Positions 45,050 through 51,941 of a DNA stretch of 64,000 bases are shown piece by piece. Source of the DNA: Variovorax sp. PAMC26660 (lineage in GTDB: Bacteria; Pseudomonadota; Gammaproteobacteria; Burkholderiales; Burkholderiaceae_C); the NCBI RefSeq assembly GCF_014302995.1, contig NZ_CP060295.1:1550001-1614000 (forward strand), in the 5' to 3' direction. Each line of letters starts with the position of its first letter. Position 1 is the stretch's first letter. The notes beneath the pieces were generated by a model. It saw only the letters and a list, made by a program, of their open reading frames with translations, searched no databases and had not been told where the DNA came from. Made by a program: the position numbers and the translations under genes.

Positions 45050-46792
45050 ATGCGCCCTGGCCAGATCATCGTTCTTGCGACCCCTGTGTTCTTTCTTCTG
45101 ATCGCGATCGAATTCGTGGTCGGCCGCGTGCGCGCACGCCGGGGCACGGGGCAGGACACCTACCGCCTGGCCGATGCGGTCAACAGCATCGGGCTGGGCA
45201 TGCTGAGCCAGATCAGCGCGGTGCTCACCGGGCTGCTGCGCATCGGCATCTACACCGCCGTGTATTCGGCGGTGGTGCTGTTTCCGCAGGAGGCGGCCCG
45301 CGATTTCTGGACCACCTGGTACGGCTGGCTGCTGGCGCTGGTGTTCTACGACTTCTGCTACTACTGGCTGCACCGCATGGGCCACGAGTCGGCCGTGCTG
45401 TGGGCGGCGCACGTGGTGCATCACCAGAGCCAGCACTACAACCTGTCGACCGCGCTGCGGCAGACCTCAAGCGGCGCGCTGTTCGGCTGGATCTTCTACC
45501 TACCCATGGCGGTGGCGGGCGTGCCGCCACTGGTGTTCGCGGTGGTGGCATTGGTCGACCTGCTCTACCAGTTCTGGGTGCACACCGAGCAGGTCGGCAA
45601 GCTGGGCTGGTTCGACCGCTGGTTCTGTTCGCCGTCGAACCACCGGGTGCACCATGCCGTGAACGACCACTACCTGGACCGCAACTACGGCGGCATCCTG
45701 ATCATCTGGGACCGCATGTTCGGCACCTTCCGCGAGGAAGACGAACGCTGCGTCTACGGCACGCGCGGCGAGCTTCGCAGCTGGGACCCGCTGTGGGCCA
45801 ACGCAGAGGTGTACTGGGGGCTGGCGAAGGATTCATGGCATGCGAAGAGCTGGACCGACAAGCTGCGCGTGTGGCTCAAGCCGCCCGGTTGGCGGCCGGC
45901 CGATGTGGCGGCGCGCTTTCCGAAGCCGGCGTTCGACATCACGAAGGTGACGCGCTACGAGCCACCGATCAGCCCCGGCGTGCAGTGGTTTGCCGGCCTG
46001 CAATTCCTGTTGTTGCTGGTGGGCGTGGCGCTCTTCCTCTGGGTTTCCGATGCGATGCCGTTGCAGCAGTCGGCCGTCTGGCTGGCCGCGCTGACGGCGT
46101 GCCTGTGGGCCATCGGTTGCGCGCTGCAGGGGCGCCTTTCAGTCACCGAGGTGCTGCTGGTGGAAGCGGCCGCCTTCGCCACCGCGAGCGCGGCGCTGGA
46201 CATTGCGTGGCTGCATCACATCTTCAAGCCGCTGGCGCTGTCGATTGCCATCTTCTTCGCGGCGCGGCGCGCGATGAAAGCCGGCGCGGTGGGCCGGTTC
46301 GATGCGCTGCTGCTCGCGGGGCTGGTCGGCTCGCTCGCAGGCGACGTGCTGCTGATGGGCTCCGCCAGCCTGTTCGTGCCGGGCCTCGTGTGCTTTCTGC
46401 TCGCGCATCTGGCGTACATCGCGCTCTTTCGCATCGGCGTCGGCATGTTCCCGCGGCGCGGCGTGCTGGCGGTGACGCTGCTGATCGGCGTGGCGATGTA
46501 TGTGTTTCTCTGGCAGGGCGGATTGCCGCCGGCCTTGCGCATTCCTGTCGGCATCTATGTGACGGTGATCGCTTGCATGGCGGCGCAGGCCATCGGGCGG
46601 GCTGCGGTATTGCGTGACACCGATCCGTCCGCGCGATGGGTGGCGGTGGGTGCGTGCTTCTTCATGCTGAGCGACGCGCTGCTGGCGACGAATCGGTTCG
46701 TGATGCCGCTGCCGCTGGCGTCGCTGTGGGTGCTGGCCACGTATTACGTGGCGCAGATATTGATCGTTCGGCACGCTCGGCCTGCTGCCTGA
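45050..46792 (+). CDS. Fusion: fatty-acid-hydroxylase/alkylglycerol-monooxygenase-like protein with C-terminal YhhN (lysoplasmalogenase-like) domain
   Basis: 580 residues, membrane protein. The N-terminal 1-300 holds the di-iron histidine boxes of the sterol desaturase/fatty acid hydroxylase superfamily: YWLHRMGHES, AAHVVHHQSQHYNL and NHRVHHAVNDHY, plus a hydrophobic core, closest in pattern to alkylglycerol monooxygenase (ether-lipid O-alkyl cleavage). About 305-365 holds extra helices. About 370-575 is a YhhN/TMEM86-type domain: KPLALSIAIFFAARRAM, LLAGLVGSLAGDVLLMGSAS, FLLAHLAYIALF and ACFFMLSDALLATNRFV, ending TYYVAQILIV. YhhN-type proteins include lysoplasmalogenases that cleave vinyl-ether bonds. 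One chain thus joins two ether-lipid-directed modules. Alternatively it could be a hydroxylase with a YhhN regulatory domain. Confidence 0.85.
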   Translation: MRPGQIIVLATPVFFLLIAIEFVVGRVRARRGTGQDTYRLADAVNSIGLGMLSQISAVLTGLLRIGIYTAVYSAVVLFPQEAARDFWTTWYGWLLALVFYDFCYYWLHRMGHESAVLWAAHVVHHQSQHYNLSTALRQTSSGALFGWIFYLPMAVAGVPPLVFAVVALVDLLYQFWVHTEQVGKLGWFDRWFCSPSNHRVHHAVNDHYLDRNYGGILIIWDRMFGTFREEDERCVYGTRGELRSWDPLWANAEVYWGLAKDSWHAKSWTDKLRVWLKPPGWRPADVAARFPKPAFDITKVTRYEPPISPGVQWFAGLQFLLLLVGVALFLWVSDAMPLQQSAVWLAALTACLWAIGCALQGRLSVTEVLLVEAAAFATASAALDIAWLHHIFKPLALSIAIFFAARRAMKAGAVGRFDALLLAGLVGSLAGDVLLMGSASLFVPGLVCFLLAHLAYIALFRIGVGMFPRRGVLAVTLLIGVAMYVFLWQGGLPPALRIPVGIYVTVIACMAAQAIGRAAVLRDTDPSARWVAVGACFFMLSDALLATNRFVMPLPLASLWVLATYYVAQILIVRHARPAA

Positions 46793-49510: not shown

Positions 49511-50137
49511 GTGTCCATCTACGAACTGAAGCCGCGTTTCCAGGCCCTGCTGCGGCCGCTGGTGGTCCGCCTGCATGCGATGGGTGTCACCGCCAACCAG
49601 GTCACGATGGCGGCATGCGTCGTATCGGTCGCGCTCGGGCTCTGGCTTTTCTTTGCCGCCCCCTCGCTCGCGGCCTTCGGGCTCATCCCCGCATGGATGT
49701 TCCTGCGCATGGCCTTCAACGCCATCGACGGCATGCTGGCGCGCGAGCACAACCAGCAAAGCAAGCTGGGCGCCTTTCTCAACGAACTGACCGACGTGGT
49801 CTCCGATGCCGCGCTCTACCTGCCCTTTGCACTGGTGCTGCCGTTCAGCCCGTTCTGGGTCGGCGCGGTGATCGTGCTGGCCGGGCTGAGCGAATTCGCC
49901 GGCGCGCTGGGCCCCACGGTGGGCGCCTCGCGCCGTTACGACGGGCCGTTGGGCAAGAGCGACCGGGCCTTCGTGTTCGGCGCGCTCGGCCTCTACGTGG
50001 CGCTGGGCTGGCCGCTGCCGGGCTGGACGGCCTGGCTGATGCCGCTGGTCGCCGCGCTCGTGGCCTGGACCACCGTCAACCGCATTCGCCGCGCATTGGC
50101 CGAAGCCGATGCTGCCGGCACGGCCGGCCGCCGCTGA
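49511..50137 (+). CDS. CDP-alcohol phosphatidyltransferase family protein, YnbA-like
   Basis: 208 residues, polytopic membrane protein. The family motif is D1-x2-D2-G-x2-A-R-x8-G-x3-D3-x3-D4. Here it reads N70-A-I-D73-G-M-L-A77-R78, G87 and N91-E-L-T-D95, so D1 and D3 are Asn while D2 and D4 remain. Family enzymes transfer a phosphatidyl group from a CDP-linked lipid to an alcohol using two metal ions held by the Asp set. The context (with YnbC/YnbD-like, acyltransferase and CdsA-like genes) matches Escherichia coli YnbA. The GTG start has GAGGGGAAG upstream. First gene of the operon. Confidence 0.85.
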   Translation: MSIYELKPRFQALLRPLVVRLHAMGVTANQVTMAACVVSVALGLWLFFAAPSLAAFGLIPAWMFLRMAFNAIDGMLAREHNQQSKLGAFLNELTDVVSDAALYLPFALVLPFSPFWVGAVIVLAGLSEFAGALGPTVGASRRYDGPLGKSDRAFVFGALGLYVALGWPLPGWTAWLMPLVAALVAWTTVNRIRRALAEADAAGTAGRR

Positions 50138-50171
50138 ACAACACACAACAAGACAGATTCACAGGGATTCA

Positions 50172-51941
50172 ATGACCAACAACACCACCCCACGCGTTCC
50201 GAACGAACTTCATTTCCAGACGCACGACGGCGAATCGCTGTTCTACCGCCACTGGCCCGCCACGGGCGCCACGCGGCGCGGCGCCATCGTGCTGTTCCAT
50301 CGCGGCCACGAGCACGGCGCGCGCATGGCGCACCTGGTCGATGAGCTGAACCTGCCCGACTTCGACTTCTTCGCCTGGGACGCCCGCGGCCACGGCCGCT
50401 CGCCCGGCCAGCGCGGCTACAGCCCGAGCTTCGGCACCTCGGTGCGCGACGTGCAGACCTTCGTGCATCACATCGGCAGCACGCACGGCGTGCCCGAACA
50501 AGACATCCACGTCGTCGCACAAAGCGTGGGCGCGGTGCTGATCGCCACTTGGGCGCACGACTACGCGCCCAAGGTGCGCGGCCTCACGCTGGCGTCTCCC
50601 GCCTTCAAGGTGAAGCTCTACGTGCCGTTCGCGCGCGCCGGGCTGGGGCTGATGCACAAGCTGCGCGGCCTGTTCTTCGTCAACAGCTATGTGAAGGCGA
50701 AGTTCCTCACGCACGACCCCGAGCGCATCGCCAGCTACGAGAGCGATCCGCTGATCTCGCGGCCCATCGCGGTCAACATCCTGCTGGGCCTGTACGAAGC
50801 GGCCGACCGCGTGGTGGCCGATGCCAACGCGATCACGCTGCCGGTGCAACTGCTGATCTCGGGCGCCGACTGGGTGGTGCACCACAAGCCGCAGCACCAG
50901 TTCTTCGAGCGGCTGGGCAGCGCGGTCAAGACCAAGACCGAACTGCCGGGCTTCTTCCATGACACGCTGGGCGAAAAAGACCGCGCGCCCGCGGTGGCGT
51001 CGATCCGCGAATTCATCCTGCAGCGCTTCGACGAGCCGGCCGTACCGGTCGACCGCCGCGAAGCGCACCTGAGCGGCGACACCGCCGATGAATCGCGCGC
51101 GCTGGCCGAACCGCTGTCGCCCCTGTCGCCGCGCGGCGCCTACTGGGCCATGACGCGCGGCGGCCTGCGCGTGGGCGGCACGCTGTCGAGCGGCATTGCA
51201 CTCGGCCACGCGACCGGTTTCGACTCGGGCAGCACGCTCGACTACGTCTACCGCAATCGTCCGGAAGGCAAGGGGCCGCTGGGCAAGTCCGTCGACAACA
51301 CCTACCTGAACTCCATCGGCTGGCGCGGCATTCGCCAACGCAAGATCCACGTCGAAGAGCTGCTGCGCATCGCGATGGAGCGGCTGGCCGAAATGCACCG
51401 CGAAGTGCGCGTGATGGACATCGCGGCCGGCCATGGCCGCTACGTGCTCGACGCGGTGCTGGCGAGCCCGGTCAAGGCTGCGTCGATCCTGCTGCGCGAC
51501 TACAGCGACATCAACGTGCGCGACGGTCGCGCACTCATCGCCGAGAAGGGCCTGGAAGACATTGCGCAGTTCGTGCAGGCCGACGCCTTCGACCGCATGA
51601 GCCTCGCGAGCGTGACGCCGCGCCCCACGCTGGCCGTGGTGTCGGGCCTGTATGAACTGTTCCCCGACAACGAAATGGTCAAGCGCTCGCTCGCGGGCGT
51701 GGGTGACGCGGTGGAAGACCGGGGCTACCTTGTCTACACCGGCCAGCCGTGGCATCCGCAACTCGAAATGATCGCGCGCGCGCTCACCAGCCATCGCCAG
51801 GGCGAAGCCTGGGTGATGCGCCGCCGCACGCAGGTCGAGATGGATCAGCTGGTGGAAGAAGCGGGCTTTCGCAAGATCGACCAGCGGGTCGATGAGTGGG
51901 GGATCTTCACGGTTTCGCTGGCGGTGCGCACCGGGCGATGA
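50172..51941 (+). CDS. Bifunctional alpha/beta hydrolase and SAM-dependent methyltransferase fusion, YnbC-like
   Basis: 589 residues. About 1-290 is a serine alpha/beta hydrolase with a nucleophile elbow in VVAQSVGAVLI (A-x-S-x-G, with S the nucleophile) and GRSPGQRGYSP upstream, related to monoacylglycerol/lysophospholipid lipases. About 400-589 is a class I methyltransferase, with motif I VMDIAAGHGRYVLDAV and a following acidic strand; catalytic details are unclear. The same fusion occurs as YnbC in Escherichia coli beside YnbA, YnbB and YnbD. It suggests hydrolysis and methylation of a lipid product, not yet established. Start at ATG 50172. Confidence 0.82.
   Translation: MTNNTTPRVPNELHFQTHDGESLFYRHWPATGATRRGAIVLFHRGHEHGARMAHLVDELNLPDFDFFAWDARGHGRSPGQRGYSPSFGTSVRDVQTFVHHIGSTHGVPEQDIHVVAQSVGAVLIATWAHDYAPKVRGLTLASPAFKVKLYVPFARAGLGLMHKLRGLFFVNSYVKAKFLTHDPERIASYESDPLISRPIAVNILLGLYEAADRVVADANAITLPVQLLISGADWVVHHKPQHQFFERLGSAVKTKTELPGFFHDTLGEKDRAPAVASIREFILQRFDEPAVPVDRREAHLSGDTADESRALAEPLSPLSPRGAYWAMTRGGLRVGGTLSSGIALGHATGFDSGSTLDYVYRNRPEGKGPLGKSVDNTYLNSIGWRGIRQRKIHVEELLRIAMERLAEMHREVRVMDIAAGHGRYVLDAVLASPVKAASILLRDYSDINVRDGRALIAEKGLEDIAQFVQADAFDRMSLASVTPRPTLAVVSGLYELFPDNEMVKRSLAGVGDAVEDRGYLVYTGQPWHPQLEMIARALTSHRQGEAWVMRRRTQVEMDQLVEEAGFRKIDQRVDEWGIFTVSLAVRTGR

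Follow-up and report, generated by a model that had tools for sequence, protein, structure and literature searches.

A single open reading frame in the 64,000-nucleotide stretch of the Variovorax sp. PAMC26660 genome analyzed here (the window) encodes a 580-residue protein in which a hydroxylase module of the alkylglycerol monooxygenase (AGMO) type is fused to a YhhN (lysoplasmalogenase-type) module. From comparison with the characterized enzymes, we infer that the fusion may be a bifunctional inner-membrane enzyme that breaks ether-linked glycerolipids, a reading that we consider about evenly balanced between right and wrong. The halves are already named in databases, the protein appearing as “lysoplasmalogenase family protein” at NCBI and as “alkylglycerol monooxygenase” at JGI. 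Among the matches listed in searches of titles and abstract openings, no paper dealt with a bacterial AGMO or with an AGMO-YhhN fusion, and the parts of the AGMO and lysoplasmalogenase literature that were available contained no report of bacterial AGMO activity. AGMO is described as labile and difficult to purify, and as the only known enzyme that degrades alkylglycerols and lyso-alkylglycerophospholipids (PMC7911779). A bacterial AGMO relative fused to a lysoplasmalogenase would offer another protein for study, and the retained catalytic residues of both enzymes make bacterial ether-lipid breakdown directly testable.

One reading frame joins two modules

The initial annotation had proposed that this frame joins an ether-lipid hydroxylase-like module to a YhhN-like module, and Pfam searches confirmed the fusion with matches far above the curated cut-offs for both halves. 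The FA_hydroxylase domain was matched at residues 93-226 (E 3.5e-30, 105.6 bits against a cut-off of 31), and the C-terminal ~200 residues scored as YhhN (PF07947), as had been predicted, at residues 389-574 (E 9.9e-42, 143.1 bits against a cut-off of 25.6) over profile positions 2-180 of 182. The histidine boxes lie within the N-terminal module as described, but the 300 residues first assigned to that module are too few: it extends to residue ~386, with the match to animal AGMO reaching residue 363 (Table 1).

The start methionine is the same as in aligned homologs. Both domains were present in all of the best 120 of 7995 scored homologue matches, and the fusion was encoded in each of 80 loci taken from 548 relatives by genome contig search, which argues against a frameshift or a chance join. 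Among the matches listed, the nearest named relatives of the protein are from Variovorax. The host genome is a single contig of 7.39 Mb, rated 100% complete, of which the window covers positions 1550001-1614000, and the YhhN module of the fusion is the sole YhhN that it encodes.

Table 1. Features of the fusion gene (window coordinates) and of the gene run holding the AGPS-like flavoprotein (L209 and C1 coordinates).
Feature	Position	Strand	Basis or content
AGMO-YhhN fusion CDS, 580 aa	45050..46792	+	Open frame from the ATG at 45050; coordinates include the stop
AGMO-type module, residues 1 to ~386	45050..46207	+	Animal AGMO profile match 9-363; end of the paralog
FA_hydroxylase core, residues 93-226	45326..45727	+	Pfam PF04116; holds the di-iron ligands
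Di-iron ligands within the FA_hydroxylase core			H108 H112 H121 H124 H125 H178 H198 H201 H202
Further FA_hydroxylase core residues			Q138 D210 N212 Y213 W220 D221; scan against the list of PMC7911779
Helix, residues 365-382	46142..46195	+	Helices of the AlphaFold2 model
YhhN module, residues 389-574	46214..46771	+	Pfam PF07947
YhhN module residues			K393 G431 D432 H453 G534 S541 D542 Y565; scan against the TMEM86 list of PMC11994398
AGPS-like gene run	L209 3562-10448; C1 about 7272061-7278947

The hydroxylase half is of the AGMO type

Gibbon AGMO (TMEM195; E.C. 1.14.16.5) aligned to the window protein with 37% identity over 319 residues (blastp). When a profile of eight bacterial modules was compared with a profile of 14 animal AGMOs using hhalign, window residues 9-363 matched gibbon AGMO 42-387 with a probability of 100% (E 6.5e-71, 35% identity). 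Nine histidines and six further residues are given as essential in human AGMO (PMC7911779, Figure 2 legend), and all 15 are present in the fusion, at the human spacing save for one inserted residue. The complete set was also found in 79 of 80 named fused loci, with 13 of the 15 at the remaining locus.

This 15-residue scan is only mildly specific, since other hydroxylases of the same genome score 8 to 14. As controls, further FA_hydroxylase proteins of the host kept 13 (L082), 14 (L085), 13 (L087), 8 (L088) or none (L089) of the residues, and the hydroxylase encoded at 729569 (L127) kept 13. Overall similarity separates the AGMO type better than the residue count does: among the eight host FA_hydroxylase proteins over the Pfam cut-off, the fusion scored 208 bits and an unfused paralog 195 bits against gibbon AGMO, with 137, 76, 65, 48.5, 48.5 and 19 bits for the other six. 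The view that the histidine boxes are AGMO-like and not generic was thus borne out by the gibbon AGMO match together with the 15 essential residues, and the hydroxylase does have ether-lipid relatives. Apart from its bacterial origin, the fusion differs from AGMO in carrying YhhN where AGMO has the last part of its C-terminus. The Pfam model of that C-terminus (PF24858) gave no match at E up to 10, which weighs against the AGMO reading, although the hhalign alignment covers its first part. Among PDB sequences, no relative of gibbon AGMO or of the window protein was found at a meaningful E-value.

The hydroxylase could instead act on another membrane lipid (ornithine lipid, lyso-phospholipid or some other bacterial lipid), with YhhN clearing the product or a different lysolipid, so that the AGMO and lysoplasmalogenase names would describe ancestry only. 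The sole NCBIfam match of the fusion is consistent with this, being to the ornithine lipid hydroxylase OlsE (NF052566), with which it has the hydroxylase superfamily core in common. However, the match reaches 62 bits against an equivalog cut-off of 475, and is best regarded as generic because animal AGMO itself scores 55 bits on the same model. The retention of every AGMO-essential residue likewise speaks for an AGMO-type substrate, and together with the YhhN evidence below leads us to regard a different lipid substrate as unlikely, though it deserves serious attention.

The YhhN half retains the TMEM86 residues

All eight catalytic residues proposed for TMEM86A/B are present in the YhhN half, and changes at seven of the eight are reported to lower TMEM86 activity (PMC11994398). 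With its full-length Pfam domain, the module resembles the YhhN/TMEM86 lysoplasmalogenases (E.C. 3.3.2.2), and eight helices are predicted for it in the AlphaFold2 model if residues 365-382 are counted. It differs from them in not standing alone, the position of the first helix apparently being taken by the last helix of the AGMO module. Helix 365-382 would appear to serve as the last AGMO-module helix and, by position, as the first of the eight YhhN helices.

Bacterial YhhN proteins assayed elsewhere are lysoplasmalogenases, which argues against a substrate outside the ether lipids, but the family is also described as common in bacteria that do not synthesize plasmalogens (PMC9052158). Plasmalogens are stated to be absent from most aerobic bacteria (PMC9131029), which again favors some other lipid.

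It is also conceivable that a single module is catalytically relevant, the other having been retained from a chance fusion as a membrane anchor or stabilizer. Compared with the window protein across 61 loci (L020-L080), the YhhN half averaged 64.3% identity vs 82.5% for residues 1-230, so the YhhN half diverges faster, and the presence of the unfused paralog in the same genome points the same way. Despite this divergence all eight YhhN residues were found in 80/80 named fused loci, and the near-complete retention of the 15 hydroxylase residues weighs equally against a passive partner, which makes the loss of function of one half improbable.

In a separate observation, five genomes from a single family encode standalone YhhN proteins (L103, L105, L109, L117 and L118) that showed G-N or A-N in pairwise alignment at the TMEM86 Ser-Asp pair, where a change lowered TMEM86 activity; these proteins may not be lysoplasmalogenases.

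Co-occurrence of AGMO and YhhN within and beyond the fusion

The frequency of the fusion was surveyed in 250 genomes of the host’s family, of which 97 had full-length AGMO matches and 103 had YhhN. The two were fused in 41 genomes and encoded separately in 42; a further 20 genomes had YhhN alone, 14 had AGMO alone and 133 lacked both. One of the fused genomes (G423) is doubtful owing to a broken frame, and one of the separate cases (G554, from which L181 comes) could be a fusion split in the assembly. In Comamonadaceae the fusion is an established form. With the 41 fused genomes left out, separate AGMO and YhhN genes were strongly associated (both/AGMO only/YhhN only/neither, 42/14/20/133; odds ratio 20, p 3.6e-17), as they were when counted by genus after removal of the 28 genera in which a fusion occurs (29/9/9/66; odds ratio 23.6, p 1.2e-11), collapsing to genus being the only means by which kinship was handled in these statistics.

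Separate AGMO and YhhN genes were neighbors in three genomes (L162, L163 and L164), in each case with an AraC-type regulator adjoining. The AraC-type, YhhN and AGMO genes are consecutive on one strand in L162, and AGMO is convergent with an AraC-type/YhhN pair in L163 and L164; Pfam assigned nine of the nine genes to AraC-type, YhhN or FA_hydroxylase. As separate genes both co-occur and neighbor each other, the link between AGMO and YhhN extends past the fusion. The unfused Pseudomonadota forms share the pairing of families with the fusion and differ in being separate genes, with the regulator beside them in these three loci. Most unfused bacterial AGMO forms carry ~40 further residues where the fusion has YhhN.

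The AraC-type regulator of L162-L164 has an Arabinose_bd domain, and its inducer could point to the substrate. In the fixed-spacing or pairwise residue scans of unfused proteins, misses at H201 in L157/L163, L160 and L164 and at K in the YhhN proteins of L163 and L164 resemble, by eye, one-residue or loop-length shifts, and an H to Q change in the YhhN of L164 looks real.

The fusion and gene surveys were scoped to Pseudomonadota. Across 398 genomes of this phylum, YhhN was present in 24/32 with full-length AGMO, in 52/75 whose sole match was a shorter AGMO-like hydroxylase, and in 30/291 that had neither. The shorter AGMO-like hydroxylases associate with YhhN about as often as full-length AGMO does, a further point in favor of a lipid substrate other than an ether lipid. 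Returning to ether lipids as the preferred substrate, it is a tenable but somewhat less than even prospect that a large share of the Pseudomonadota breaks down ether lipids aerobically by means of a bacterial AGMO and YhhN. The two would be encoded separately in many lineages and as neighbors next to an AraC-type regulator in others, and in Comamonadaceae they are fused. If true, such a system would explain why YhhN is kept by many plasmalogen-free bacteria. Because AGMO and YhhN co-occur even where they are not fused, the hypothesis is general and can be tested, and the fusion would provide a lead on the purpose of YhhN in organisms without plasmalogens as well as a handle on aerobic bacterial ether-lipid breakdown.

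A probable early origin of the fusion

The unfused AGMO-type paralog of the host (L125) is 377 aa long and 54% identical to the fusion, and it stops where YhhN starts in the fusion. By eye, its gene shares a strand with nearby beta-ketoacyl-synthase-like and GNAT-like genes (L125 4869-7314, near C1:2481000). Of the 85 AGMO-related rows placed in one tree, all 49 fused rows grouped in a single clade (SH-aLRT 98) that also held L181, the paralog L125 and L140, and the 24 other unfused bacterial rows lay outside it. The long-branched unfused L125 and L140 lay among fused rows in both trees, and a constraint keeping the fused rows together was not rejected in the second (AU p 0.196). The trees are thus compatible with one early origin, and the simplest reading would be a single early fusion with possible later loss of YhhN.

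Possible role in the breakdown of outside ether lipids

A survey of the host genome for ether-lipid synthesis covered HGD-D, PF10520 and AGPS-like genes. No HGD-D protein, which belongs to the anaerobic route to plasmalogens, was found in the genome. A gene of the PF10520 lipid-desaturase family is present (C1:201771-202259; L122 9730-10296), lying by eye near phosphonate-type genes; it was found in 4/250 family genomes, two of these without YhhN, and in 0/14 control genomes. In all four PF10520 proteins examined, as judged by spacing, Arg replaces the histidine specific to PEDS1 and Asn replaces F118. Histidine 131 (mouse numbering) is reported to be kept in PEDS1 and not in FAD4 (PMC8960569), and the host protein, which unlike the PEDS1/CarF plasmalogen desaturases is without it, is therefore perhaps FAD4-like. 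Its rarity, its neighbors and the absent histidine counter its candidacy as a plasmalogen desaturase.

The genome also encodes an AGPS-like flavoprotein of 516 aa, whose best matches among PDB sequences are alkyl-DHAP synthases (2uuu, 1.9e-45; 4bby, 9.8e-38), followed by the next family at 1.9e-30, and which has an SHHHGVG stretch in common with the alkyl-DHAP synthases. Its gene is part of a run that encodes an MFS transporter, an FGGY kinase, a GlpD/GlpO-type oxidase, the flavoprotein and a glycerol-3-phosphate antiterminator (Table 1). Judged from these families, the run looks catabolic and might serve to break down alkylglycerol (phosphate).

Were the host to synthesize alkyl or alkenyl lipids itself, the fusion could recycle them, and the AGPS-like and PF10520 proteins would be the pieces of such a home-made cycle. 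However, the catabolic-type surroundings of the former, the substituted residues and patchy distribution of the latter and the failure to find HGD-D render such a cycle quite improbable. Breakdown of, or protection against, ether lipids from outside is a better fit than synthesis by the host itself.

Chemically, hydroxylating an alkyl ether at carbon 1' and adding water to a 1'-alkenyl ether lead to one hemiacetal, from which a fatty aldehyde is released. In the proposed mechanism, the N-terminal di-iron module would hydroxylate carbon 1' of the O-alkyl chain in the fashion of AGMO, and the C-terminal module would hydrate the 1'-alkenyl bond of lysoplasmalogens in the fashion of TMEM86/YhhN. 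Since the two reactions would converge on this unstable hemiacetal, and from it give a fatty aldehyde and a glycerol(phospho) residue, one protein could cope with both classes of ether lipid. The known enzymes divide this work, AGMO being described as cleaving alkyl, not vinyl, ethers and lysoplasmalogenase as acting on the vinyl ether of lysoplasmalogens (PMC9131029). The substrates would be O-alkyl and O-alkenyl lysolipids that are probably scavenged rather than home-made, and scavenging or detoxification of ether (lyso)lipids met in soil would be the likeliest use, as the genome survey found no convincing ether-lipid synthesis set. Scavenging or protection has likewise been proposed for the YhhN of plasmalogen-free bacteria (PMC9052158, PMC9471318). 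Genes for a Biopterin_H protein and for a pterin-carbinolamine dehydratase are present, which makes a tetrahydropterin cofactor plausible; the dehydratase gene lies, by eye, among housekeeping genes and does not adjoin the fusion.

The lipid-gene neighborhood is nearly confined to Variovorax

The initial annotation had further drawn on an LpxH-like gene and a ynb-type lipid operon beside the fusion. Neighbors were surveyed at the 80 named fused loci (32 from Variovorax and 48 others), with >1.2 kb to the left of the gene available in 79/80 and >2.5 kb to the right in 77/80. Both sets of genes are indeed present, but they are not widely conserved. The LpxH-like gene occurred at 31/80 loci (Variovorax 30/32, others 1/48), and the ynb-type trio was matched at 23/80, with its CDP-alcohol transferase at 22/32 Variovorax loci and 1/48 others, so the local lipid-gene context is nearly restricted to Variovorax. 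A lipid-locus context for the fusion was therefore rejected beyond that genus. The broadly common neighbor is instead a convergent ruvB (72/80; Variovorax 31/32, others 41/48). The lack of conserved lipid-gene neighbors counts against an ether-lipid function. A CDF gene was found at 19/80 loci and acyl-CoA dehydrogenases at 15-16/80. Within the ynb-type trio of the window, one reading frame (50130-51941) combines an alpha/beta hydrolase (Hydrolase_4) with a Methyltransf_20 domain.
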